A stretch of 64,000 nucleotides of DNA from Cyanobium sp. WAJ14-Wanaka (GTDB lineage: Bacteria; Cyanobacteriota; Cyanobacteriia; PCC-6307; Cyanobiaceae): assembly GCF_024345375.1 (NCBI RefSeq), contig NZ_JAGQAZ010000001.1:902661-966660 (forward strand), in the 5' to 3' direction. The notes below the pieces were generated by a model. It ran no database searches, was not told the origin of the DNA, and saw only the letters and a list, made by a program, of their open reading frames with translations. How positions within the stretch are numbered: position 1 is the first letter of the stretch; each line of letters opens with the position of its first letter. This document shows, one piece after another, positions 5,294-22,424 of the stretch. The position numbers were made by a program, and so were the translations under genes.

Positions 5294-6034
5294 TTAGGCG
5301 ATCTGTTGGAGAAATTGCTGGGTGCGCGGGTGCGATGGGCAGGAGAAGAACTGCTCAGGCGGTGCGATTTCCACCACGGTTCCCTCCGCCATCAACACCA
5401 CCCGGCTGGCGACCTGACGGGCAAAGCGCACCTCATGGGTGACGACCACCATCGTCATTCCCTCCGCCGCCAGCTCCTGCATCACCTCCAGCACCTCCTG
5501 CACCATTTCCGGATCGAGGGAACTGGTGGGCTCATCAAAGAGCATCAGGCGGGGCTCCATGCAAAGCGAGCGGGCAATTGCCACCCTCTGTTGCTGACCG
5601 CCCGAGAGCTGGCCGGGGAATTTATGGGCCTGCTCGGCAATGCCGACCCGCTCCAACAGCTCCAGGGCTTCTCTCTCCACCTGGGCCTTCGGGCGCTTAC
5701 GCACCAGCACCGGCGCCAGGGTGAGATTTTCCAGCACGCTGAGGTGGGGAAACAGGTTGAACTGCTGAAACACCATCCCCACCTCGCGGCGGATTGCCTC
5801 GATGTTGCGGGTGTCGGCATCGATGGCCATGCCATCGACCGTGATCGAACCCTGCTGGAAATCTTCAAGGGCATTAAAGGTGCGCAGGAAGGTGCTCTTG
5901 CCAGAACCTGAGGGCCCCATGATCACCACCACCTCACCGCGATGGACCGTCAGGTCCACACCCCTGAGGGCGTGGAAGCCATTCGGGTACCACTTCTGCA
6001 CGCCCCTGGCCTCAACGATCGGATCGGTGCTCAT
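5294..6034 (-). CDS. Polar amino acid ABC transporter, ATP-binding protein
   Basis: This is a 246-residue ATPase of the GlnQ/AapP family that powers amino acid import. Walker A is GPSGSGKST (residues 40–48), the signature motif is LSGGQQQR and Walker B ends LMLFDEPTS. It is the last gene of a four-gene operon. Its ATG lies inside the stop of the preceding permease gene (ATGA), so translation is coupled. By order and length the operon resembles rhizobial aapJQMP and the cyanobacterial N-II (Nat) permease. Substrate specificity cannot be read from sequence. Confidence 0.93.
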   Translation of the reverse strand: MSTDPIVEARGVQKWYPNGFHALRGVDLTVHRGEVVVIMGPSGSGKSTFLRTFNALEDFQQGSITVDGMAIDADTRNIEAIRREVGMVFQQFNLFPHLSVLENLTLAPVLVRKRPKAQVEREALELLERVGIAEQAHKFPGQLSGGQQQRVAIARSLCMEPRLMLFDEPTSSLDPEMVQEVLEVMQELAAEGMTMVVVTHEVRFARQVASRVVLMAEGTVVEIAPPEQFFSCPSHPRTQQFLQQIA

Positions 6035-7281
6035 GGGGCAGAACGCAGGGGGGAATTGGGATTGAGGCGGGTTTCGAGGGCGCGGCTACCCAGGCCCAGG
6101 GCGGCGCAGCAACACCAAAACAGCACCGCCAGCACCAGATAAACCTCGGCATTGCGGCCAAGGAAGGCCGGGTTGGCCATCACCGTGCGAGCCGTACCTA
6201 GCAAATCAAGCAGGCCAATCAGGGAGAGCAAGGTGGTGTCTTGGAGGAGGGTGATGAACTGGCCCACCACCGAGGGCAGGGCCACCCGCACCGCCTGGGG
6301 GATCACCACCTGCAGCAGGGCCTGGGGCATCGACAGCCCTAGGGCCTGGGCCGCCTCCAACTGGCCGCGGGGCACCGCGTTTAGGCCGGAGCGCAGGGCC
6401 TCGGCCACATAGGCCGCCGCAAAGAAAGTAAGCACCCAGGCCGCCCGCCAAACCCGATCTGGCGCCAGGCCCCCGGGCAGCAAAAAGCCCAGGATGTTTT
6501 GGCCCAGAAACAGCAGGGTGATCAGGGGTGCTCCACGGATGAATTCGATATAGATCACCGAGCCCCAGCTCAGCAGGGGCAATTCACTGCGGCGCCCTAG
6601 GGCCAGCAGCAGCCCCAGGGGAAAGCAGATCAGGATGGCAAAGCTGGCTTCGAGCAGGGTGAGCAGGAGGCCGCCCCAGTTGGAGGGCGCCACGGGCATC
6701 AGGCCCAGGCCGCCACTGATCAACACCATCCCCAGCAGGTAGAGCAGGGGCCACAGCAGGGGGAACAGGCGCAGCAGCAGGGTCCGCTCGCCAGCCCGCC
6801 TACCACTGGCCCAATTGCCGCTGGCCCAGCGCAGCCCCAACAGCAGGCCCGTGATCGCCCACCAGCGCGCCTGGATCGCCAAGCTGAGCTGCAGCAGCAG
6901 GGGCAGGAGGGCCGCCAGGGCAACCAAAAACCCTGCTGCCAGGCGGTCGTTGGTCGGCCAGCGGTTGGCCTGGGCCCTGGGCCCACCCCGCAACAGACCC
7001 CAGCTCAAACCGGCGGCGGCGGCCAAAAGGCCCGTAAGCAGCCAGAGCCGCCACTGCTGCTCAATCGGGTAGCGGCCCACCGCAAACAGGGTGCTGTTGG
7101 TTTGAATCACGGCCCACTGGGCCTGGGTGAGTGCCCAGCGCAATAGCCCCGCCCCCGCCGCCAGCAGGGCAGCAAACAGGGCCAAGGAAATCAGTCCGTC
7201 GAGCTTGCTGCCAAACAGCTCGCGGCGCAGCCGTTGCCACGGACCAGGGCGCAACATCGGCGGTGGAGCACTGGCCTGCAT
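6031..7281 (-). CDS. Amino acid ABC transporter permease (AapM/NatH-like)
   Basis: This 416-residue inner-membrane permease has the long N-terminal hydrophobic extension typical of AapM/NatH. The C-terminal half carries the BPD_transp domain with the EAA loop that contacts the ATPase (EALRSGLNAVP, then AAQALGL). The ATG at 7281 overlaps the stop of the upstream permease (TGATG), and its own stop overlaps the ATPase start. It pairs with the second permease to form the heterodimeric channel for polar amino acids. Confidence 0.9.
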   Translation of the reverse strand: MQASAPPPMLRPGPWQRLRRELFGSKLDGLISLALFAALLAAGAGLLRWALTQAQWAVIQTNSTLFAVGRYPIEQQWRLWLLTGLLAAAAGLSWGLLRGGPRAQANRWPTNDRLAAGFLVALAALLPLLLQLSLAIQARWWAITGLLLGLRWASGNWASGRRAGERTLLLRLFPLLWPLLYLLGMVLISGGLGLMPVAPSNWGGLLLTLLEASFAILICFPLGLLLALGRRSELPLLSWGSVIYIEFIRGAPLITLLFLGQNILGFLLPGGLAPDRVWRAAWVLTFFAAAYVAEALRSGLNAVPRGQLEAAQALGLSMPQALLQVVIPQAVRVALPSVVGQFITLLQDTTLLSLIGLLDLLGTARTVMANPAFLGRNAEVYLVLAVLFWCCCAALGLGSRALETRLNPNSPLRSAP

Positions 7282-13208: not shown

Positions 13209-13252
13209 TTAATGCAGCAATTCTGCAAGCACCCCCACCAGGGCCGCAGCGC
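12880..13252. repeat. Left 373-bp direct repeat flanking the R-M/TA/ATPase island
   Basis: This stretch aligns end to end, without gaps, to 26173–26545 in the same orientation, with about 14 mismatches by eye, six of them clustered near the dedA-internal end. It spans the 5' 329 bp of dedA and the last 44 bp of chrA including its TAA stop. Beyond both ends the two loci diverge completely. Confidence 0.93.
13209..13252 (-). pseudogene. 3'-terminal remnant of chrA
   Basis: The last 14 codons of chrA plus the TAA stop (encoding a sequence ending AELLH) are kept here, directly upstream of dedA. The match to the intact chrA at 26502 stops at 13252, where tandem 16-bp repeats begin. The base pattern GGGCCGCAG in this remnant agrees with the internal chrA fragment at 22525 rather than with the intact gene (GGGCAGCAG). 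Confidence 0.85.
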
Positions 13253-13288
13253 TAGCGGGCCGCAGCGCTAGCGGGCCGCAGCGCCAGC
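13241..13288. repeat. Three tandem 16-bp repeats at the left island edge
   Basis: Units at 13241–13256 and 13257–13272 are identical (GGGCCGCAGCGCTAGC). The third at 13273–13288 differs by one base (CCAGC for CTAGC). Only the first 12 bases belong to chrA, so the array starts from chrA sequence and expands away from it at the exact point where homology to the other copies ends. Confidence 0.9.
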
Positions 13289-13348
13289 GGGGCGTGGAAG
13301 TAAAACCCGATTTGATGTCAGGCTTAGCTGGCTCGTCCTCCGCCCCCG

Positions 13349-15085
13349 TTGACCTTCACCGCAGAGAGCCCGCAGCCAGACAAAAACCAACAGGAAGATC
13401 TCCAGGACGAGTTCCTTGGGGCCCTGGCCGCCCTGGGGGGATCAGCCGGAAATGAAGGGCTACGTGGCGTACTGGAATGGGAAGAGGCCACCTATGGGGC
13501 AGTCAAGGCGGAGCTGCTCGATCGGGGACTGATCGTGCTGGGTCGTGGCAGGGGCGGATCCGTTTCCCTAGGCGATGGGCGATCCCGCGCAGCGAAACCA
13601 GCCAATAGTGCCAGCAGTTTTGAGCAGGCCTTTCGCGGCATCGACGACTGCCTGCGTAAGGAGGCCGGCTGCGGCACTGAGCTCGATTACACCGAGCAGA
13701 CCTCCTGGCTGCTGTTTCTCAAATACCTCGATGGCCTGGAAGATGACAAGGCCACCGTGGCTGCATTGGAGGGCCATAGCTATAGCCCGATCCTGGCGGA
13801 GCCCTACCGCTGGAATAGCTGGGCAGCACCAAAAAACGCCAGCGGCCAACTCGATCACAACGTTGCCATCACCGGCGACGACCTGCGTGAATTTGTGAAT
13901 CAACGTCTGTTTCCCTACCTGGAGCAGTTCAAGCAACGGGCCAGCGGCCCAAACACGATCGAATACAAGATCGGTGAAATCTTCGGCGAGATCCGCAACA
14001 AAATCTCCAGCGGCTACAACCTGCGCGAAATCATCGACGTGATCGATGGCCTGCGGTTTCGCTCCCAGGGCGAAAAGCACGAGCTTTCGATGCTCTACGA
14101 GGAAAAGATCAAGAGGATGGGCAACGCTGGCCGCAATGGCGGCGAGTACTACACGCCCCGGCCATTGATCCGCGCAATTGTTGGAGTGGTAAATCCCCAA
14201 ATCGGTGAAACGGTCTATGACCCAGCGGTGGGTTCGGCGGGGTTTTTGTGTGAAGCGTTTGAATTCATGCGCCAGGGCGGCACCGGCGGCCGGGATCTCA
14301 GCACCGCCGATCTCGAAACCCTGCAAACGCGCACCTTCACCGGCAAGGAGAAAAAGAGCCTCGCCTACGTGATCGCGATCATGAACATGATCCTGCACGG
14401 CATCGAAGCGCCAAAGATCATCCACGCCAACACCCTCACTGAAAACCTCAGCGATGTGCAGGAGAGGGATCGCTTCGATGTGATCCTCGCCAATCCACCC
14501 TTCGGTGGCAGCGAACGCAAGGAGGTGCAGCAGAACTTCCCGATCCGCAGCGGTGAAACGGCCTTTCTGTTTCTGCAGCACTTCATCCGCCTGCTGCGGG
14601 CCGGCGGCCGCGCCGGGGTAGTGATCAAGAACACGTTTTTATCCAACACCGACAATGCCTCGGTGGCCCTGCGCCAGCAGCTGCTGGAGAGCTGCAACCT
14701 GCACACGGTGCTGGATTGCCCGGGCGGCACCTTCCAGGGGGCGGGCGTGAAAACGGTGGTGCTGTTCTTCGAGAAGGGCGCACCCACCCACAAGGTGTGG
14801 TTCTACCAGCTCGATCCCGGCCGCAATCTGGGCAAGACCAATCCCCTCAACGACGCCGACCTGGCGGAGTTTGTGGAGCTGCAGAAAACCTTTGCTGATT
14901 CAGCCAAGAGCTGGAGCGTCGCTGCAGACACGATCGATCCCGCCAGCTTCGACCTATCGGTGAAGAACCCCAATGGGGGCGAGGCTGTGACGCACCGCAG
15001 CCCACAGGAGATCATGGCGGAGATCGCTTCGCTTGATACCGAGAGCGCGGACGTTCTGGCAACCATCAAGGGGCTGCTCGCATGA
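13349..15085 (+). CDS. hsdM: Type I restriction-modification system, DNA methyltransferase subunit
   Basis: This 578-residue N6-adenine methyltransferase subunit acts with HsdS. An N-terminal segment of about 85 residues looks like a small helical or winged-helix extension, followed by the HsdM_N domain. The catalytic core shows GEYYTPR (265–271), the SAM-binding DPAVGSAGFL (291–300) and the catalytic NPPF (382–385). The only available start is TTG at 13349, since an in-frame stop lies eight codons upstream. It overlaps hsdS by four bases. It is the first gene of the island after the chrA remnant. Confidence 0.93.
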   Translation: MTFTAESPQPDKNQQEDLQDEFLGALAALGGSAGNEGLRGVLEWEEATYGAVKAELLDRGLIVLGRGRGGSVSLGDGRSRAAKPANSASSFEQAFRGIDDCLRKEAGCGTELDYTEQTSWLLFLKYLDGLEDDKATVAALEGHSYSPILAEPYRWNSWAAPKNASGQLDHNVAITGDDLREFVNQRLFPYLEQFKQRASGPNTIEYKIGEIFGEIRNKISSGYNLREIIDVIDGLRFRSQGEKHELSMLYEEKIKRMGNAGRNGGEYYTPRPLIRAIVGVVNPQIGETVYDPAVGSAGFLCEAFEFMRQGGTGGRDLSTADLETLQTRTFTGKEKKSLAYVIAIMNMILHGIEAPKIIHANTLTENLSDVQERDRFDVILANPPFGGSERKEVQQNFPIRSGETAFLFLQHFIRLLRAGGRAGVVIKNTFLSNTDNASVALRQQLLESCNLHTVLDCPGGTFQGAGVKTVVLFFEKGAPTHKVWFYQLDPGRNLGKTNPLNDADLAEFVELQKTFADSAKSWSVAADTIDPASFDLSVKNPNGGEAVTHRSPQEIMAEIASLDTESADVLATIKGLLA

Positions 15086-16218
15086 TGATCGGGTGGGAGA
15101 CAAAGCAGCTCGGTGACGTTTGTTCGTTTCTGAATCGCGGCGTGTCGCCGAAGTATGTCGAAAATGGCGGAATCGTGGTCATCAACCAAAGATGCATCCG
15201 CGATCATCGCGTGAACTTCGAGGTTGCTCGTCGGCACGACATCATGGCTAAGGCCGTCAGCGCCGAACGTTTCGTGCAAGCTGGCGATGTGTTGGTGAAC
15301 TCAACCGGGGAAGGAACGCTCGGTCGCGTCGCCCAGCTTCGCTATGCCCCACCAGAACCAACCACTGTAGATTCGCACGTCACGATTGTTCGGCCTGAAC
15401 CCGGCATCTTCTTTACCGAGTTCTTTGGCTACGTACTTCGGGACATTGAGGAAGAACTCAAAAAGAGTGGCGAAGGTTGCGGTGGGCAAACCGAATTGAA
15501 CCGCTCGCTTCTGGCCGAGAAATCTCTCGTCCGATTCCCAAAGTCGCTGGCCGAACAGCAGCGGATTGTCGGGGTGCTGGACGAAGCGTTTGCCGGCCTC
15601 GCCACCGCCCAGGCCAACGCTGCCAGGAACCTCCAGAACGCCCGTGCGCTTTTTGAAAGCCACCTCCAATCCGTCTTCACTCAGCGGGGCGAGGGGTGGA
15701 TGGAGAAGGCGCTCGGTGAATGTTTCAGGCTTAAGAGCGGCGACGGTCTAATCAGCAAAGAAATGAAATACGGTGCTTATCCCGTCTTTGGGGGCAATGG
15801 AATCGCTGGCCAGCACAACGATTTCAACCTTTCCGGCGACAACGTGATTATTGGACGGGTAGGAGCTTTGTGCGGGAATGCGAGGCACATCACTGAGAAA
15901 ATCTGGCTGACTGATAACGCATTCAAGCTGGTCGATGTTAATGCTGATTTTGACAACGGATTCCTCACATACCTTTTGAACTACAAAAACCTTCGCGGTC
16001 TTGCGAGGCAGGCCGCACAGCCGGTTATTTCAAACTCCTCCCTCAAAAATTTGAAATTGGAGTTTCCATCACGCGCAGAACAGCAGCGCATCGCGGCCAA
16101 GTTCGACGCCCTCGCCACCGAAACCCAACGCCTCGCGAGCCTCTACGAGCAAAAGCAGGCGGCACTGGCGGACCTGAAAAAATCCCTCCTGCACCAAGCG
16201 TTCAGCGGCGAACTCTGA
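15082..16218 (+). CDS. hsdS: Type I restriction-modification system, specificity subunit
   Basis: This 378-residue protein has two target recognition domains, at about residues 1–150 and 205–345, each followed by a helical spacer starting with a matching AEQQRI motif (EQQRIVGVLDEAF and EQQRIAAKFDALA). This half-and-half design recognises the two parts of a bipartite DNA site and sets the spacing between them. The start ATG overlaps the hsdM stop. The second recognition domain is visibly richer in A+T than its neighbours, as expected for exchangeable recognition domains. Confidence 0.93.
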   Translation: MMIGWETKQLGDVCSFLNRGVSPKYVENGGIVVINQRCIRDHRVNFEVARRHDIMAKAVSAERFVQAGDVLVNSTGEGTLGRVAQLRYAPPEPTTVDSHVTIVRPEPGIFFTEFFGYVLRDIEEELKKSGEGCGGQTELNRSLLAEKSLVRFPKSLAEQQRIVGVLDEAFAGLATAQANAARNLQNARALFESHLQSVFTQRGEGWMEKALGECFRLKSGDGLISKEMKYGAYPVFGGNGIAGQHNDFNLSGDNVIIGRVGALCGNARHITEKIWLTDNAFKLVDVNADFDNGFLTYLLNYKNLRGLARQAAQPVISNSSLKNLKLEFPSRAEQQRIAAKFDALATETQRLASLYEQKQAALADLKKSLLHQAFSGEL

Positions 16219-16334
16219 TTCGTGGCGGTCTTCATGACCTTCGGCGCCCCGATGGGGAGTGCGTGAACGTCGGGGCGTTGGCCTCCAGGTCGATGGCGGT
16301 TCCCAGCGAGCGCAACCCCCAGCCGCCTCCCGTT

Positions 16335-16426
16335 TTCCTGCATCGGCACAGCAGTTTGTTCTGCATCAGAAGGCCGGCTTTTTCTGCATTAGGATTCCGG
16401 CATTTCCTGCATTGCTCGCCCCGCCA
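16335..16426 (+). repeat. Four degenerate 23-bp direct repeats with phased CTGCAT boxes
   Basis: CTGCAT occurs at 16338, 16361, 16384 and 16407, an exact 23-bp period. Each is preceded by TTC, TT or TTTT, and units two and three also share a CCGGC before the next box. The last unit ends at the ATG of the DUF4143 ATPase at 16426. The layout suggests a row of protein-binding sites, but no regulator has been shown to bind it. Confidence 0.75.
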
Positions 16427-17682
16427 TGGCCTCCGGCTATCGCCCCCGCATCGCCGACGCCGAGTTGCGCGCCTGCCTGGGCTCCGCCGGAGCCGTGGTG
16501 ATCGAAGGCCCCAAGGCCTGTGGCAAGACCCGCCTGGCCCAGCAGCTGGCTGCCTCCATGGTGCTGCTTGATATCGACACCGCCGCCCGCCAGGCGCTGG
16601 CGGTGGATCCGGCCCTGGTATTGGCCGGATCTCGGCCGCGTCTGCTGGATGAGTGGCAGGTGGAGCCGGCGCTCTGGAACCAGGTGCGGCGGGCCGTGGA
16701 TGCCGCCGCTGAACCCGGGCAATTTCTGCTCACCGGCTCGGCGGTACCGGCCGATGACGCCGAGCGTCACACCGGGGCCGGGCGCTTCTCGTTTCTGCGG
16801 CTGAGGCCGATGAGCCTGGTGGAAAGTGGCGCCGGCCAGGGCGGTGTCTCGTTGGCGGCGCTGCTGGCGGGGGAGCCGCCGAGCTGCGCCGATCCAGGGC
16901 TGTCGCTGTCGGATCTGGCTGAGCTCGTCTGCCGAGGCGGCTGGCCGGCCCAGCTGGAGCGGCCCGTGGCGGCGGCCTGCCGGGCCGCCCGTGACTACCT
17001 GGAGCAGGTGCGGCGGGTGGACGTGCAGCGGCTAGATGGGCGGCGGCGCGATCCCCAGCGGCTGGGGGCCCTGCTGCGCTCCCTCGGCCGCAATGTCGCA
17101 ACAGAAGCGAGGCTGTCCACCCTGGCGGCCGATGCCGGCGGCGCCGATGGCCCCCTCGACCCGCGCACCGTGGCCGACCACCTAAACGCCCTGGAACGGC
17201 TGATGGTGCTCGAAAATCAGCCCGCCTGGCGGCCCCATCTGCGGTCAAAGGCGGCCCTGCGTCAGGCGCCTCGGCGCCACTTCTGCGACCCCTCCCTGGC
17301 GGTGGCATCCCTGGGGGGCAGCCCCGATCGCCTGCTCAACGATCTGGAGTGGCTGGGCTTGCTGTTCGAATCGCTGGTGATCCGCGACCTGCGGGTGCTG
17401 GCCCAGGCGCTGGAGGGCGAAGTCTTCCACTATCGCGACGACTACGGCATCGAAGTGGACGCGATCGTGCAGCTCCGCGATGGCCGCTGGGGTGCGATCG
17501 AGATCAAGCTCGGACCGGGCCAGGTAGAGGCCGCCGCCGCAGGGCTGATGCGCTTTCGCCAGCAGATCGACACGCGCCTATCCGGCGAACCCGCCTTTCT
17601 GGCGGTGGTCTGTGGCAGCGGCTATGGCTATCGGCGAGCCGATGGCATCGCCGTAGTGCCGGCTGGGGCTTTAGCTCCGTGA
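16426..17682 (+). CDS. AAA-family ATPase with DUF4143 / PD-(D/E)XK-like C-terminus
   Basis: This 418-residue protein of the widespread DUF4143 ATPase group has a Walker A at residues 27–35 (EGPKACGKT), a Walker B LLDEWQ near 73–78 and an LLTGSA sensor-like motif near 105. The C-terminal part carries EVDAIV followed by GAIEIKLG, matching the E-D-ExK core of PD-(D/E)XK nucleases. The function of the family is not established; members are often found in defence or mobile regions. It lies between hsdS and an MNT/HEPN pair, preceded by the 23-bp repeat array. Confidence 0.85.
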   Translation: MASGYRPRIADAELRACLGSAGAVVIEGPKACGKTRLAQQLAASMVLLDIDTAARQALAVDPALVLAGSRPRLLDEWQVEPALWNQVRRAVDAAAEPGQFLLTGSAVPADDAERHTGAGRFSFLRLRPMSLVESGAGQGGVSLAALLAGEPPSCADPGLSLSDLAELVCRGGWPAQLERPVAAACRAARDYLEQVRRVDVQRLDGRRRDPQRLGALLRSLGRNVATEARLSTLAADAGGADGPLDPRTVADHLNALERLMVLENQPAWRPHLRSKAALRQAPRRHFCDPSLAVASLGGSPDRLLNDLEWLGLLFESLVIRDLRVLAQALEGEVFHYRDDYGIEVDAIVQLRDGRWGAIEIKLGPGQVEAAAAGLMRFRQQIDTRLSGEPAFLAVVCGSGYGYRRADGIAVVPAGALAP

Positions 17683-17726
17683 TCAAGCAGGAGGCAAAGC
17701 CAGCCAAGTCACGCCAGACTCCCCCC

Positions 17727-18110
17727 ATGAGCGCCTTAGACCGCCCCTCCAGCTACTCCTACGTGGTGGATGAGTCGCTGCTGCGCACGATCGCGGCCGA
17801 GATCCAGGCGGCGATTCCGGGCGCCGAGGTGCGCCTTTTCGGTTCCCGCGCCCGCGGCACCGAGCGGCCCGATTCCGATCTGGATCTGCTGGTGTCCGTG
17901 CCGGATGAATGGATGGCCAGCCATTCGCGGTTGGAGGAAACGGATGTCCTGGGCTGGAAGCTGGCCCACCACCGCCTGCCGATCGAACTGCTGCTTTTCT
18001 CCGCCAGTGAAGTGGAGGAGCGGCGCCATGGGCGTCAGAACGTGATTGCCGAGGCGTTCCGTTATGGGCGCCGGCTGGATCCTGCGAAGCCCCTGTATGG
18101 CCCCGGCTGA
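17727..18110 (+). CDS. MNT-type nucleotidyltransferase (probable antitoxin of MNT/HEPN pair)
   Basis: This 127-residue minimal nucleotidyltransferase has the GSRARGTERPDSDLDLLV core at about residues 39–56, in which GS and DxD form the polymerase beta-like active site, and IELLLF near residue 89 supplying a likely third acidic residue. In characterised MNT/HEPN systems the MNT protein modifies or neutralises the HEPN RNase. The ATG at 17727 was chosen because it starts right before the fold. The gene overlaps the HEPN gene by 14 bp. A 25-bp stretch recurs exactly at 20880. Confidence 0.85.
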   Translation: MSALDRPSSYSYVVDESLLRTIAAEIQAAIPGAEVRLFGSRARGTERPDSDLDLLVSVPDEWMASHSRLEETDVLGWKLAHHRLPIELLLFSASEVEERRHGRQNVIAEAFRYGRRLDPAKPLYGPG

Positions 18111-18480
18111 AACGGCCACCGGCTTTCTGCGCATCGCGCACCGCGACCTGCGCACCGCCTCGGCCATGGCGGATGCTTCGCTCTTTGAGGAAGCGACCTG
18201 GGGATTTCATCTTCAGCAGGCGATCGAGAAGGCTCTGAAGGCCTGGCTGCTTGTGCTCACGCCAGAGCAGCCACCCTTCAGTCACAACCTCAGGCTGCTG
18301 TTTCAGATGCTGCGCGATCAGGGCGCCGCTGTTGAGCCCTTCGTTGGCCTCAGCCGCTTCACCCTGTATGCCGTGGTGTGGCGCTACGACGAAGATCCGG
18401 ATCTGGAACACCTCGACCGCACCGACTGGAACCAGCTCTGCGCAGACCTGCTCGCCCACGTGGCCAGCCTGCTGCCATGA
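18097..18480 (+). CDS. HEPN-domain protein (probable toxin partner of MNT)
   Basis: This 127-residue all-helical protein has the core sequence FHLQQAIEKALKAWLL at about residues 37–52, followed by HNLRLLF, matching HEPN-domain proteins. The RNase motif of active HEPN toxins (R, four to six residues, H) is not evident; the nearest is R-x8-H near residue 95. The protein may therefore be inactive, divergent or act otherwise. The start ATG at 18097 overlaps the MNT gene, and its stop overlaps hsdR (ATGA), so the pair is coupled to the restriction subunit. Confidence 0.78.
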   Translation: MAPAETATGFLRIAHRDLRTASAMADASLFEEATWGFHLQQAIEKALKAWLLVLTPEQPPFSHNLRLLFQMLRDQGAAVEPFVGLSRFTLYAVVWRYDEDPDLEHLDRTDWNQLCADLLAHVASLLP

Positions 18481-20834
18481 ACGAGGCTGAAACCCGCGCC
18501 GAGTTGATTGATCCGCTGCTCACAGCCGCAGGTTGGGGAGTGGTGGAGGGCAGCCGCATCCGTCGCGAGTTTTCGATTACCCCCGGCCGGATCGAGGGCG
18601 GCGGCCGCCGCGGCAAGCCACTGACCGCCGACTACGTGCTCACCTACCGCAACACCCAGCTGGCGGTGGTGGAGGCCAAGCCCGACACGGCTCCACTCAC
18701 AGAGGGCGTGGCCCAGGCCAAGGACTATGCCGGCAAGCTGAATCTGCGTTTCACCTACGCCAGCAATGGCCTCGGTGTTTACGCCATCGATATGGAGACC
18801 GGGGCAGAAGGTCCGCAAAAGGCCTTCCCTACACCCGACGAACTGTGGGCACTCACCTTCGCCGAGGAGAACGCCTGGCGGGATCGCTTTGCAGCCATTC
18901 CATACCCCGATAAGGGCGGCAGCTGGCAAATCCGTTTCTACCAAAACATCGCCGTGGCGCGGGTGCTTGAGGCGATCGCCTCCGGCCAAGACCGCATCCT
19001 GCTAACCCTGGCCACGGGCACTGGCAAAACCTCAATCGCCTTTCAGATCATCTGGAAGCTGTTCCAGGCCCGCTGGAACCTCAGCGGCCAGCCCACCAGA
19101 AGGCCGCGAATCCTTTTTTTGGCTGATCGCAACACCCTCGCCGATCAGGCCTTCAACGACTTCACCGGTTTTGCCGCCTTCGAAGACAACGCCCTCGCCA
19201 GGATCGAACCAGATGCCCTGCGCAAAAAGGGCCGCGTGCCCACAAACGCCAGCGTTTTCCTAACCATTTTCCAAACCTTCATGAGCGGCCCGCCGGTGGA
19301 GGGCAAGCCCTCTCCCTGGTTTGGCCAATACCCCGCCGATTTCTTTGATTTCATCGTGATCGATGAATGTCACCGCGGTGGCGCCAACAACGAATCCACC
19401 TGGCGCGGCATCCTCGAATACTTCAAACCAGCTGTGCAGCTCGGCCTAACTGCTACCCCACGCCGCACAGACAACGCCGACACCTACAACTACTTTGGCG
19501 AACCAGTTTTCATCTACTCCCTAAAGGAGGGCATCAACGACGGCTTCCTTACGCCCTTTCGCGTAAAGCAGTTCACCACAACGCTTGATGAATACGTCTA
19601 CACCCCCGACGACAAGGTGGTGGAAGGTGAAGTGGAGGAAGGGCGTAGATACAACGAAGCAGAATTCAACCGGATTATTGAGATCGAACAGAGAGAAAGA
19701 CAGCGGGTGGAAATCCTGCTCAGCCAGATCAACCCCAAGGAGAAAACCCTGGTGTTTTGCGCCACCCAGGAGCATGCCCTGGCGATTCGCGACCTGATCA
19801 ACCAACTAAAAACCAGCCCAGACCCCAACTACTGCCATCGCGTCACCGCGGACGACGGCGAGCTTGGCAATACCTGGTTAAGGGCCTTTCAAGACAACGA
19901 AAAAACAATCCCCACCATCCTCACCACATCGCAGAAACTCTCCACCGGGGTGGATGCCCGCAACGTGCGCAACATCGTGCTGTTGCGGCCGGTGAACTCA
20001 ATGATCGAGTTCAAACAAATCATCGGCCGTGGCACCCGCCTCTACGAAGGGAAGGACTACTTCACGATTCTCGATTTCGTAAAAGCCCATCACCACTTCA
20101 ATGACCACGATTGGGATGGCGAGCCCCTGGAGCCGGAACCTCCAGGTTTGCCCAATCCAGGAGCCGAGAAGGCAGTAGAAAGCGCAAGCAAACAGGATTC
20201 GCCAGCCGGCGAAAACGATGATTCGCCCCGTAGAAGCAAACTGCGTATCAAGCTCGGAGATGGCAAGGAGCGCTCTCTCCAGCACATGATGGTGACAAGC
20301 TTTTGGCATCCCGATGGCACGCCAATGAGCTCCCAGCAGTTCATTGAGCTGCTCTACGGCCAGCTGCCGGAATTCGTGAAAGATGAGGCCGAGCTTCGTG
20401 CCCTTTGGAGCGCACCTGATACCCGCGCCAAACTGCTGCAGGGCCTGGCAGAAAAAGGCTTTGGCGGCGACCAATTAGCCGAGATGCAGTCGCTGATATC
20501 AGCAGAGAACAGCGATCTATTTGATGTTTTGGCCCACGTGGCCTACGCCCTACCGCCCATCCCCCGCGAGGAGCGCGCCCAGCAAGCACGCCTCTACATA
20601 AATTCTCGATTTACAAGCAAGCAACAACTTTTCCTGGATTTCGTGCTCCAGCACTACGTGAGCATGGGTGTTCAAGAACTAGCCCAAGAAAAGCTCAGCC
20701 CCCTATTGCTATTGCGCTACCAAAACTCCATCTCCGATGCGGTTGCTGACCTTGGCAAACCGGAAGAAATTGGCCAACTATTTGCCAACTTCCAGCGGTA
20801 TCTATATGAGCCCCAGCCTCAGGCCCGACGGTAG
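18477..20834 (+). CDS. hsdR: Type I restriction-modification system, restriction/translocase subunit
   Basis: This 785-residue HsdR shows an N-terminal PD-(D/E)XK endonuclease (D52, E66 and K68 within VVEAK), a Walker A ATGTGKTS at 179–186, a DECHRGG motif II near residue 300, LTATPRR and a QIIGRGTRL motif VI in the second helicase domain. An EcoEI-type C-terminal domain follows. It cuts and translocates DNA as part of the HsdR2M2S complex. The start overlaps the HEPN stop, so hsdR is separated from hsdMS by three inserted genes. Confidence 0.93.
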   Translation: MNEAETRAELIDPLLTAAGWGVVEGSRIRREFSITPGRIEGGGRRGKPLTADYVLTYRNTQLAVVEAKPDTAPLTEGVAQAKDYAGKLNLRFTYASNGLGVYAIDMETGAEGPQKAFPTPDELWALTFAEENAWRDRFAAIPYPDKGGSWQIRFYQNIAVARVLEAIASGQDRILLTLATGTGKTSIAFQIIWKLFQARWNLSGQPTRRPRILFLADRNTLADQAFNDFTGFAAFEDNALARIEPDALRKKGRVPTNASVFLTIFQTFMSGPPVEGKPSPWFGQYPADFFDFIVIDECHRGGANNESTWRGILEYFKPAVQLGLTATPRRTDNADTYNYFGEPVFIYSLKEGINDGFLTPFRVKQFTTTLDEYVYTPDDKVVEGEVEEGRRYNEAEFNRIIEIEQRERQRVEILLSQINPKEKTLVFCATQEHALAIRDLINQLKTSPDPNYCHRVTADDGELGNTWLRAFQDNEKTIPTILTTSQKLSTGVDARNVRNIVLLRPVNSMIEFKQIIGRGTRLYEGKDYFTILDFVKAHHHFNDHDWDGEPLEPEPPGLPNPGAEKAVESASKQDSPAGENDDSPRRSKLRIKLGDGKERSLQHMMVTSFWHPDGTPMSSQQFIELLYGQLPEFVKDEAELRALWSAPDTRAKLLQGLAEKGFGGDQLAEMQSLISAENSDLFDVLAHVAYALPPIPREERAQQARLYINSRFTSKQQLFLDFVLQHYVSMGVQELAQEKLSPLLLLRYQNSISDAVADLGKPEEIGQLFANFQRYLYEPQPQARR

Positions 20835-20879
20835 TGAACATGCTCGAGCCAAAACCCACCTCTCTCGCCTAGTGGAGGC

Positions 20880-20930
20880 GATCGAACTGCTGCTTTTCTC
20901 CGCCGGTTAGGCGGGGGAGCAGCGCCACAG
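20880..20930 (+). pseudogene. Remnant of an MNT nucleotidyltransferase gene
   Basis: Positions 20880–20904 are identical over 25 bases to 17981–18005 in the MNT gene (encoding IELLLFSA). About 25 further bases are weakly similar and then contain an in-frame stop. The rest of the 157-bp space between hsdR and abiEi holds no other recognisable feature except the abiEi ribosome binding site. It looks like a decayed fragment of a second MNT copy. Confidence 0.65.
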
Positions 20931-20991
20931 ACCTGCGACGAGAAAGGCACTGCCCGCTACAGGTGTGTAGCTTTTGTCGCATAATGGAGCC

Positions 20992-21600
20992 ATGAAGGCA
21001 GTGGCAGACAGGAAAGAAATGGCGCTGAAGCTGGTGCGCAGCAAGGGCCTACTACGCACCGGGGAGGCCGCAGCCGCTGGCGTAGATCGCTCAACCCTGG
21101 CCCGCCTGTGCGAACGGGGCCTGCTGGAGCGCCTGGGGCGCGGGCTCTATGGCCTGCCGGCCGCGGAAGTTCGCGAGCACGTTGATCTCGAGATCGTTGC
21201 CAAGCAGGTTCCCCAGGCGGTGTTCTGCCTGCTCACCGCCCTACGGCTGCATGGCCTGGGCACGCAACAGCCAAGGAGAGCCTGGATCTGCCTCCCCCGT
21301 GGTGCGCACACGCCCGTCCTGCAGTTCCCTCTTCTCGAGGTAATCCACCTGCAGCCTGCGCAGCACCGCCTGCAGGTGGAAACCCAGCGCTCCGGCCCGA
21401 TCCTCCTCAAGGTCTATGGGGTCGAGAAAACTCTGGTCGATTGCTTCCGCCATCGTCGCCGGCTTGGCATGGAGCCGGTGCTGGAAGCCCTAAAGGACGC
21501 GATCCATCAGCGGCGACTGAATGTCGATGAGCTATGGCGGCAGGCCCAAACCCAGCAAATGCTGCGGGTTATGTCCCCCTATCTGGAAGCCCTCCTGTGA
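20992..21600 (+). CDS. AbiEi-family antitoxin (type IV toxin–antitoxin)
   Basis: This 202-residue protein has an N-terminal winged helix-turn-helix (LLRTGEAAAAGVDRSTLARL, then RGLYGLP) typical of AbiEi antitoxins, followed by the AbiEi C-terminal domain. Family members autorepress their operon and counteract the AbiEii nucleotidyltransferase. The ATG at 20992 has GGAG a few bases upstream and is preferred to a TTG at 20974. It overlaps the toxin start as GTGA. Confidence 0.87.
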   Translation: MKAVADRKEMALKLVRSKGLLRTGEAAAAGVDRSTLARLCERGLLERLGRGLYGLPAAEVREHVDLEIVAKQVPQAVFCLLTALRLHGLGTQQPRRAWICLPRGAHTPVLQFPLLEVIHLQPAQHRLQVETQRSGPILLKVYGVEKTLVDCFRHRRRLGMEPVLEALKDAIHQRRLNVDELWRQAQTQQMLRVMSPYLEALL

Positions 21601-22424
21601 CGGCCAACCTGGCTGCATCTATCCGACAACGCCTGCTAAACCGCGCCCGACAAGAGCAGGTGCCATTCGATGCGGTACTGAACCGCTTTGGCAGGGAGCA
21701 ATTGCTTTATCGGATCGGCATCTCGGAGTACAGCCAACAGTTTCTGCTCAAGGGGGCCATGCTCTTTGCCCTCTGGTATGACATGCCCCACCGCCCCACC
21801 AGGGACATGGACCTGCTGGGCTTCGGAGCAGGGGATCTATTGGTATTGGAAGGGGTGTTTCGTGAGATCAGTCAACAAGCCGTAGACGATGGATTGCGAT
21901 TCTCCGAGTCGGTGCAGGTAGAAGAGATCCGTAAGGAAGCCAGTTACGCCGGCGCAAGGGTCACCTTGAACGCCACCCTTGACCAGGCCCGTATTCCTCT
22001 TCAGGTTGATATCGGCTTTGGTGACGCGGTCACCCCAGCAGCCGAGGAGGTTGATTACCCAGTGCTCCTGGAAGACCTACTTCCACCACGTCTAGGCGCC
22101 TATCCCATCTACACGGTAATCGCGGAAAAACTGGAGGCGATAGTTCAGCTGGGCATGGTCAACAGTCGCCTAAAGGACTACTTCGATCTGCAGGTGCTGC
22201 TGGCGCGCGAGCAGCTCGACCGGGAGACCCTCGCAAGGGCGGTGCTGAGCACCTTCGTGGGTCGCGCCACACCCCTGCCGCAACAGGTGCCCATGGGGCT
22301 AAGTCCTGAGTATGGAGAAGATCCTGGGAAGCAGAAGCAATGGCAGGCCTTCTTACAGCGCAACGAACTGTCTGGGTCAGCCCTGCCGGAGGTGGTGACG
22401 TTGCTTCGGGAAGGGTTGATGTAG
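21597..22424 (+). CDS. AbiEii/AbiGii-family nucleotidyltransferase toxin
   Basis: This 275-residue AbiEii-type toxin has KGAMLFALWYD near residue 52 followed by RPTRDMDLLGFG, carrying the DxD of the nucleotidyltransferase site, then LQVDIGFGD with a further acidic residue and a KLEAIVQLG stretch. Known relatives add nucleotides to tRNA acceptor stems and give abortive phage infection. I start it at the GTG at 21597, which overlaps the antitoxin stop. The ATG-free upstream extension from 21534 lies inside abiEi. Confidence 0.87.
   Translation: MTANLAASIRQRLLNRARQEQVPFDAVLNRFGREQLLYRIGISEYSQQFLLKGAMLFALWYDMPHRPTRDMDLLGFGAGDLLVLEGVFREISQQAVDDGLRFSESVQVEEIRKEASYAGARVTLNATLDQARIPLQVDIGFGDAVTPAAEEVDYPVLLEDLLPPRLGAYPIYTVIAEKLEAIVQLGMVNSRLKDYFDLQVLLAREQLDRETLARAVLSTFVGRATPLPQQVPMGLSPEYGEDPGKQKQWQAFLQRNELSGSALPEVVTLLREGLM

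Follow-up and report, generated by a model that had tools for sequence, protein, structure and literature searches.

The window, that is the whole 64,000-nucleotide stretch of DNA from Cyanobium sp. WAJ14-Wanaka that was analysed, contains an array of four direct repeats with a 23-bp period just upstream of a gene for a DUF4143 ATPase. Our results indicate that this array is likely the cognate binding-site array of the ATPase encoded directly downstream, through which the protein would repress its own promoter. The computational analysis showed that the period is fixed across phyla and that, within the clade of this ATPase, residues of the protein co-evolve with bases of the repeat. Physical binding, cooperativity, repression and the link to defence are inferred, as neither binding nor expression data are at hand.

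A phased array upstream of the ATPase gene

On the forward strand, CTGCAT occurs at 16338, 16361, 16384 and 16407 in steps of exactly 23 bp, and Tandem Repeats Finder reported a period of 23 across 16359-16412. Within the 2.14-Mb genome, the pattern CTGCAT-N17-CTGCAT was found five times on the forward strand, three of these within the window array. The reverse strand contained none, nor did the reversed control pattern occur in the genome (0 occurrences). The coordinates and genome-wide counts thus confirmed four CTGCAT boxes at exact 23-bp spacing, the core claim of the original prediction. CTGCAT alone shows no enrichment across the window, with 46 occurrences against 57 expected. A chance repeat was ruled out by the genome-wide pair count together with the phasing in homologues described below.

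Alignment of 68 arrays provided a common register of unit positions 0-22, in which CTGCAT corresponds to positions 16-21, i.e. the right half of a 16-bp core. The real repeat unit is therefore larger than CTGCAT and consists of a 16-bp core and a 7-bp linker. Across the 68 arrays, the mean identity between units of one array was 0.58-0.84 at positions 7-22 and 0.29-0.46 at positions 0-6; as the units were chosen by their score over positions 5-22, these values are biased somewhat toward the core. The letters of the 7-bp linker are free, which identifies the spacing as the feature that is kept. Three or four units were present in 58 of the 68 arrays, with a range from two to nine. The edge of unit 1 in the window coincides with the point at which DNA similarity to relatives begins (16327-16334 in eight of the 14 closest loci). 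The window array occupies -97 to -13 relative to the start codon, and the claim that the last box abuts this codon failed: 13 nt lie between the box and the ATG at 16426, so that it is merely near. No Rfam family reached the gathering score in 15900-21200, and an RNA element is accordingly not supported. Separately, a 16-bp repeat, GGGCCGCAGCGCTAGC (3.2 copies, 97% match), occurs at 13241-13291, just upstream of hsdM (start at 13349).

Features of the array and of the downstream ATPase gene (window coordinates)
Feature	Coordinates	Strand	Basis
Repeat unit 1, 16-bp core CCCGTTTTCCTGCATC	16329..16344	+	Register from 68 aligned arrays
Repeat unit 2, core CAGTTTGTTCTGCATC	16352..16367	+	
Repeat unit 3, core CGGCTTTTTCTGCATT	16375..16390	+	
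Repeat unit 4, core CGGCATTTCCTGCATT	16398..16413	+	
Putative -10-like hexamer TAGGAT, unit 3/4 junction	16390..16395	+	Phase 22, common to 22 other arrays of 68
DUF4143 ATPase gene, 418 aa, PADLOC PDC-S01	16426..17682	+	Pfam AAA_14 + DUF4143; PDLC04790 E=9e-67
AAA ATPase domain, ~residues 1-134 (Walker A GPKACGKT, Walker B LLDEW)	16426..16827	+	Conserved residues, AlphaFold2 model
Winged helix, residues 210-286; recognition helix 246-258	17053..17283	+	AlphaFold2 model, mean pLDDT 91.6
Wing loop, residues 266-282, candidate base-reading positions 276/277	17221..17271	+	Model and covariation
PD-(D/E)XK region, residues 307-418 (E315, E343, D345, E359, K361)	17344..17679	+	Alignment, model
Beta-hairpin turn, residues 338-342, candidate base-reading positions 339/340, beside nuclease motif	17437..17451	+	Model and covariation

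Domain structure of the ATPase

The PADLOC model PDLC04790 was matched by the window protein and by all 69 rows of the protein alignment. Pfam, the motif residues and the AlphaFold2 model (mean pLDDT 91.6, pTM 0.92) agreed that the window PDC-S01 protein contains both an AAA domain and a PD-(D/E)XK domain. The strands of the latter span residues 331-338, 343-350 and 355-361 in the model. In the 69 aligned sequences, E315, E343, D345 and E359 do not vary, nor do most residues of Walker A and B, and K361 is almost invariant. Between the two domains lies a region which we take to be a winged helix, an assignment made by us from the order of helices and strands in the model. NCBIfam gave no match for the window ATPase, the search for solved relatives by sequence yielded two weak matches only (E 0.06 and 0.5), and the Pfam domain search found no transposase domain.

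The 23-bp period is conserved across phyla

The original prediction had suggested examining the upstream regions of homologues for phased boxes. For this comparison, the 150 bp upstream of 77 homologous loci (~53% identity or more) and of the window gene were collected, 78 in total; three of 80 loci were dropped because of 5'-truncated matches (L038, L043) or too little upstream sequence (L058), and one masked locus (L064) was omitted from the lag test. When all lags from 10 to 60 were compared, 23 or 46 ranked first, alone or in a tie, in 76 of 77 upstream regions, the sole exception being L073, which has an odd match span of 1.7 kb. Lag 23 itself was best or tied in 68/77. Controls, evaluated for lag 23 only, gave 22 of 1120 for the upstream regions of other mechanically called ORFs in the same loci and 29 of 770 for Markov shuffles. 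The mean number of matches at lag 23 was 23-25 of 35 in three groups, compared to 10-16 at other lags.

The homologues carry names from eleven phylum-level groups (Cyanobacteria, Actinomycetota, Gammaproteobacteria, Planctomycetes, Gemmatimonadetes, Elusimicrobia, Desulfobulbaceae/Desulfobacterales, Chloroflexi, Nitrospirales, Acidobacteria and Bacteroidota/Rhodothermales), which were taken from record titles, many of them of metagenome bins. The letters of the repeat vary by lineage, e.g. CGGCTTTTTCTGCATT in the window, ATTGCAAATCACGGGTT in L081, GTCCGTTTCACCCGCT in L067 and CGCCAAAACTATCAAT in L029, and the period stays constant. Among 41 further loci (30 from an actinobacterial sample, ten from a chloroflexal sample and the gammaproteobacterial centre itself), 23 or 46 was among the best lags in 33, several of these at 37-45% identity; without four loci that repeated training loci, the count was 30 of 37. 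The 349 genomes around the gammaproteobacterial centre contained no match at E 1e-70 except the centre and thus no new locus. Phased repeats are hence present upstream within the ATPase clade, and the recurrence of the 23-bp phasing in nearly all sampled members supports the proposal that the spacing itself is selected.

Residues of the ATPase co-vary with bases of the repeat

The protein alignment of 69 rows was compared with the upstream arrays of 68 of these, as one (L058) lacked upstream sequence. The alignment did not include L038, L043 and L073, and it further lacked nine loci that do carry an upstream array (L007, L009, L010, L012, L013, L016, L019, L025, L028), being either close relatives of included rows or partial matches. 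Correlations of 7452 residue-position pairs were calculated from 39 non-redundant loci, with a standard deviation of 0.079 over all pairs. The highest values were obtained for residue 339 with unit position 8 (r 0.68), 277 with 9 (0.59), 340 with 7 (0.55), 276 with 7 (0.54) and 404 with 11 (0.48), and a register-free scan likewise placed residues 340, 339 and 276 first. Over the 68 arrays, R277 occurred with G9 in 27 of 27 cases, an arginine-guanine pairing; N339 occurred with T8 in 33/38, T340 with T7 in 27/31 and Y340 with C7 in 15/15. The supported residues R277 and N339 are located in the wing of the winged helix and in the hairpin turn beside the PD-(D/E)XK motif, respectively.

These rules were applied to new loci, which were registered with a profile that disregarded unit positions 7, 8, 9 and 18. 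Nine of the 41 test loci were omitted: four were repeats of training loci (L150, L176, L177, L183), three had no clear array (L154, L157, L163), one was partial (L175) and one was doubtful though its best lag was 23 (L153). Among the 14 new loci with 50% identity or more, R277-G9 held in 5/5 loci versus 0/9 without R, V277-A9 in 5/5 versus 1/9, N339-T8 in 8/8 versus 0/6 and T340-T7 in 6/7 versus 1/7. The rules are mutually dependent in this set as the residues co-occur, and some of the loci, such as L146 and L147, are close relatives. For the 18 test loci below 50% identity, whose register is uncertain, the rules were weak (R277-G9 6/10 versus 1/8, p 0.057; the others not significant).

A co-change analysis was carried out on a tree of 82 tips, from whose construction the tested columns were excluded. 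R277 underwent 13 changes and G9 underwent 14, ten of them coincident versus 1.57 expected, and N339 and T8 changed 15 and 12 times, with ten coincident versus 1.76 expected; in both cases none of 1000 random placements gave as many. Weaker support was obtained for S276 with T7 (four coincident, P 0.004) and for Y, S or N340 with C7 (three coincident, P 0.015), and the tree did not support V277-A9 (P 0.097) or T340-T7 (P 0.12). Four further candidate pairs failed: E338-G11 (tree P 0.08; test set 0/2), K245-C18 (tree P 0.77), Q197-G18 (no coincident change on the tree; test set 0/2) and G/P404-G11 (no coincident change on the tree).

For seven arrays (L029, L030, L032, L057, L080, L082, L085), the register had been set by hand before the residue-base tables were made. 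Without them, 340-7, 277-9 and 276-7 remained among the top five of 6992 pairs and 339-8 was ninth, with residues 94, 283, 287 and 213 scoring equally with position 8. Position 8 is therefore less specific, and R277-G9 is regarded as the firmest contact, followed by N339-T8. In Mantel tests that took the remaining protein into account, repeat similarity was not explained by the whole winged helix (partial r 0.02) or by the recognition helix (0.08); it was explained by the nuclease part (partial r 0.28). The covariation signal thus sits at single residues and not at whole regions. That residues of the wing and the hairpin, distant from each other in sequence, are linked to the neighbouring bases 7-9 is as expected if both touch one stretch of DNA, an argument made without distances from the model. 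The window protein itself has A276, A277, D339 and Y340, so that only the Y340-C7 rule applies, and it fits. As residues of the ATPase change together with bases of the repeat, the ATPase most likely binds its own array. The suggestion of an operator array, possibly for the ATPase itself, is therefore supported by the residue-base covariation, with binding and regulation remaining inferred.

Array and gene as a unit and their genomic surroundings

Sites matching the array were searched in 771,751 bp of 68 loci. Only one site outside the arrays was as strong as the second-best array unit, and no site of that strength was present on the reverse strand of the same 771,751 bp. The only off-array site belongs to a remnant array in L083 (3530-3575), about 2.5 kb upstream of the main array and followed by an ORF that we read as transposase-like. 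Consequently, there is no array at the right end of the gene and no sign of a local regulon, a statement that is limited to the 68 loci and does not cover whole genomes. The array sites sit upstream of their own gene and stay with it across loci.

Among L006-L019, the 14 closest loci, the DNA resembles that of the window from the first unit onward in the eight loci mentioned above and from within the array in four; in the remaining two the similarity starts at the gene (L018) or further upstream within the same operon (L008). The similarity ends at 17662-17700, around the stop codon, in ten of the 14 and extends into the neighbours in four. In L018, array and gene form an insertion of approximately 1362 bp (5905-7266). 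Within a genus sample of 16 genomes, one of them that of L018, the flanks of this insertion are adjacent in 11 other genomes that were aligned, the window's own included, and lie 23-32 bp apart in G045 and G183 according to unaligned BLAST coordinates; G247 gave no match to the site. The junction rests on DNA similarity, as the query protein is a mechanically called ORF that is interrupted in relatives, and the neighbouring genes are unnamed. Neither a target duplication nor a terminal inverted repeat was evident by eye at this one junction. We conclude that array and gene can move as one unit, as exemplified by the 1.36-kb insertion in L018. At the corresponding site of G205 (L198), 935 bp of other sequence without similarity to the L018 insert or the ATPase were observed, so this spacer may have served as a landing site more than once.

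In the window, the ATPase gene is located between hsdS and a nucleotidyltransferase/HEPN pair, which is followed by hsdR. The surrounding Type I restriction operon spans 13349-22424, with the DUF4143 gene and the nucleotidyltransferase/HEPN pair in the hsdS-hsdR interval and AbiEi/AbiEii after hsdR. A short remnant after hsdR (20833-20930) consists of what we read as an antitoxin-like start, followed by 49 bp that are 88% identical to the nucleotidyltransferase gene at 17980-18028, and similar remnant pieces were observed downstream of the ATPase gene in L010, L012, L013, L015 and L016.

The neighbours of 24 other loci, chosen for long flanks, were also inspected; loci sharing the restriction operon with the window (L008, L009, L010, L019 and partly L006 and L012) were not part of this set, and the inspection had no control neighbours. 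The 93 neighbour ORFs, called mechanically, included no recurrent defence family, and no PADLOC model had more than two members at E 1e-8. Single neighbours matched PDC-S24, PD-T4-6, AbiEi, mad6, MkoA and PglW, and the Pfam families of the neighbours were mainly metabolic. A defence-island context is therefore unsupported by the neighbours of the 24 chosen loci.

A proposed self-bound, autoregulatory array

In the proposed mechanism, each protomer would read one 16-bp core with the winged helix (wing residues 276/277) and the PD-(D/E)XK hairpin (residues 339/340). Neighbouring protomers would be placed every 23 bp, i.e. approximately 2.2 helical turns, with cooperativity between them probably mediated by the AAA domains. 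The bound ATPase would most likely repress its own promoter, and its release or activation may follow a change in the state of the ATPase or a phage-derived signal.

Autoregulation is inferred to be likely as the array fills the stretch before the start codon and overlaps a -10-like element. The best -10-like hexamer fell at phase 22 in 23 of the 68 arrays and at phase 8 in 18, compared to a largest class of 6.8 on average and 13 at most for shuffled offsets; this phase preference arises in part because the core itself can read TACAAT. No sigma-70-type -35/-10 pair at threshold was found in 16200-16500 of the window, and the promoter is therefore a guess.

A bolder reading is conceivable, in which the PD-(D/E)XK domain itself helps to read the sequence, with the base-linked hairpin lying next to its active site, and the nuclease may be poised at the edge of the core next to the free linker, making the array a self-sensing switch. 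The enzyme assembled on the array would then be silent and self-repressing, and loss of the array complex, or its being outcompeted, e.g. by invading DNA, would free active nuclease. The same self-contact may also drive the spread of the one-gene cassette.

Alternative explanations

The array might be the operator of another host regulator encoded elsewhere, with the ATPase merely the regulated gene. Its placement is where an operator would be, and no binding data exist to decide the matter. We consider this unlikely because array and gene occur together across unrelated sites and phyla, repeat sequences vary between lineages, and residues within the ATPase change in concert with the repeat bases. 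It is likewise improbable that array and gene form a mobile single-gene cassette in which the array serves chiefly as a cis site for movement, by end binding or PD-(D/E)XK cleavage, with regulation being secondary. In favour of this view, similarity starts at the array in eight and ends around the stop codon in ten of the 14 closest loci, array and gene were inserted in L018 at a site whose flanks are adjacent in 11 aligned genomes, and the base-linked hairpin adjoins the nuclease motif. However, the 68 loci lack both a second array at the right end and a copy on the reverse strand, the single junction displays no target duplication or terminal inverted repeat by eye, and no transposase domain was found. 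In addition, four of the 14 closest loci remain similar past the gene, and in one locus the similarity sets in before the array.

An iteron-type replication origin bound by an Orc/Rep-like initiator could also account for direct repeats in tandem next to the gene of an AAA protein that has a winged helix, and the top Foldseek match was indeed an archaeal Cdc6/Orc1 on origin DNA (2qby, E 3.1e-6). Yet the window gene and L018 reside in chromosomal contigs between other genes, and relatives were found in only nine of 72,556 plasmid records (E 1e-30) and four of 50,697 phage records (E 1e-10). We therefore regard this explanation as very improbable, and the iteron-like version of the original prediction found no support. 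Finally, tandem repeats arise readily, and passive duplication without function would leave such an array; this possibility is virtually eliminated by the exact period that is kept across phylum-level groups despite sequence divergence, by the constrained core as opposed to the free linker, and by the residue-base covariation. A self-bound array thus remains our preferred interpretation.

Upstream repeats in the wider DUF4143 family

To determine the range of the array, more distant DUF4143 loci were analysed. The cyanobacterial-phylum sample comprised 30 loci, 27 of which were tested, the window gene among them; L129, L130 and L136 were omitted as partial or misframed. Six of the 26 non-self loci had short-period repeats at the floor p of 0.005 (L118 and L119 with 22 bp, L121, L122 and L140 with 23 bp, L143 with 32 bp), and three more of the same 26 reached p 0.025-0.04 (L127 and L123 with 33 bp, L126 with 41 bp). 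L121 is closely related to L122, and these two and L140 may or may not fall within the window's clade. Two of 26 loci in an Elusimicrobia-centred sample were significant, L222 with a 9-bp microsatellite and L233 with two palindromic units 23 bp apart (p 0.010); none of the other four of the 30 loci in this sample was significant, L237 giving a flat tie over many lags that is probably due to masked bases. Most sampled distant DUF4143 genes thus lack an array. The array as a general DUF4143 property was rejected, and it instead marks this PDC-S01 clade.

The window's genome encodes a second DUF4143 ATPase (L119, G000:C1 ~1047945-1049009) with 34% identity and four 22-bp repeats, CAGATTCCAATCTGGACGCTAA and variants, that are unlike the window array in sequence, and a third copy (L135) without a significant array (p 0.83). 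In the Elusimicrobia-centred sample, some genomes contain over 20 DUF4143 matches, the maximum being 27 in a genome of 1.3 Mb.

Perfect inverted repeats with arms of at least 8 bp were found upstream of 16 of 50 distant DUF4143 genes (L116-L145, L211-L236) versus 5.4 expected, and in four of 68 loci of the 23-bp clade versus 3.8 expected. The arms are 13-22 bp long in L216-L218, L221, L223 and L227. Several of the 16 loci are close relatives, and terminators of neighbouring genes were not excluded. Other DUF4143 ATPases may thus have palindromic operators, and it is possible that operator-like DNA is common in the superfamily, in differing forms.

PDC-S01 has been described as ranking fourth in frequency among the defence systems of all prokaryotes (29,494 detections in bacteria and 9,986 in archaea) and is among the candidates that mostly still await validation (PMC12988326); it was also the most frequent individual locus in rumen genomes (PMC13356809). 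A Thermus gene with AAA_14, DUF4143 and HTH motifs showed a 6.6-fold rise in RNA in an Argonaute-bearing strain when a plasmid was present (PMC4406477); its membership in the clade of the window ATPase is undetermined. An upstream array for this family was not mentioned in titles and abstract openings of the literature searched, which included no bioRxiv and few subscription journals. A 16-bp site and two well-supported specificity residues render this abundant protein of unknown function directly assayable and its DNA partner testable. The dozens of matched protein-site pairs are useful in themselves and suggest that a hairpin of the nuclease domain helps to set sequence specificity.

Comparison with known systems

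The window protein is an ATPase fused to PD-(D/E)XK, as is PDC-S01, the single-gene phage defence candidate of PADLOC (PMC12988326). The passages on PDC-S01 in PMC12988326 and PMC13356809 mention no upstream array, whereas the window has one.

Several systems in which a protein acts on repeated DNA sites offer themselves for comparison. Transposon ends of the Tn7/TnsB type carry inverted binding-site arrays at both ends. This arrangement is not met here, with no reverse-strand site and a single forward site outside the arrays in 68 loci. By analogy, the array resembles the iterons of Rep proteins, e.g. of geminiviruses, in that direct repeats lie near the gene of the matching protein and differ among relatives (PMC12548392); in contrast, the window offers no replicon context and a different protein. 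Archaeal Orc1/Cdc6 proteins act on the ORB repeats of origins. They may share with the window ATPase the combination of an AAA domain and a winged helix on repeated asymmetric sites, but the Foldseek match to 2qby has a low TM-score (0.29 by query length). The window ATPase differs from Orc1/Cdc6 by its PD-(D/E)XK domain, the strict 23-bp tandem spacing and the position of the array upstream of its own gene.

The closest similarity, one of fold only, was to STAND/NLR-type and related ATPases, which VIA-align matched over approximately residues 1-310 of the window protein. The best matches were PABY2304 (2qen; Z 15.2, rmsd 4.4, 257 aligned) and SSO1545 (2fna; Z 14.4, rmsd 4.5, 253 aligned), and plant NLRs and CED-4 gave Z values of ~11-12. 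The fold of ATPase and winged helix is thus nearest to PABY2304 and SSO1545, followed by NLR/CED-4. Unlike these ATPases, the window protein possesses a C-terminal PD-(D/E)XK region and is preceded by an upstream DNA array.
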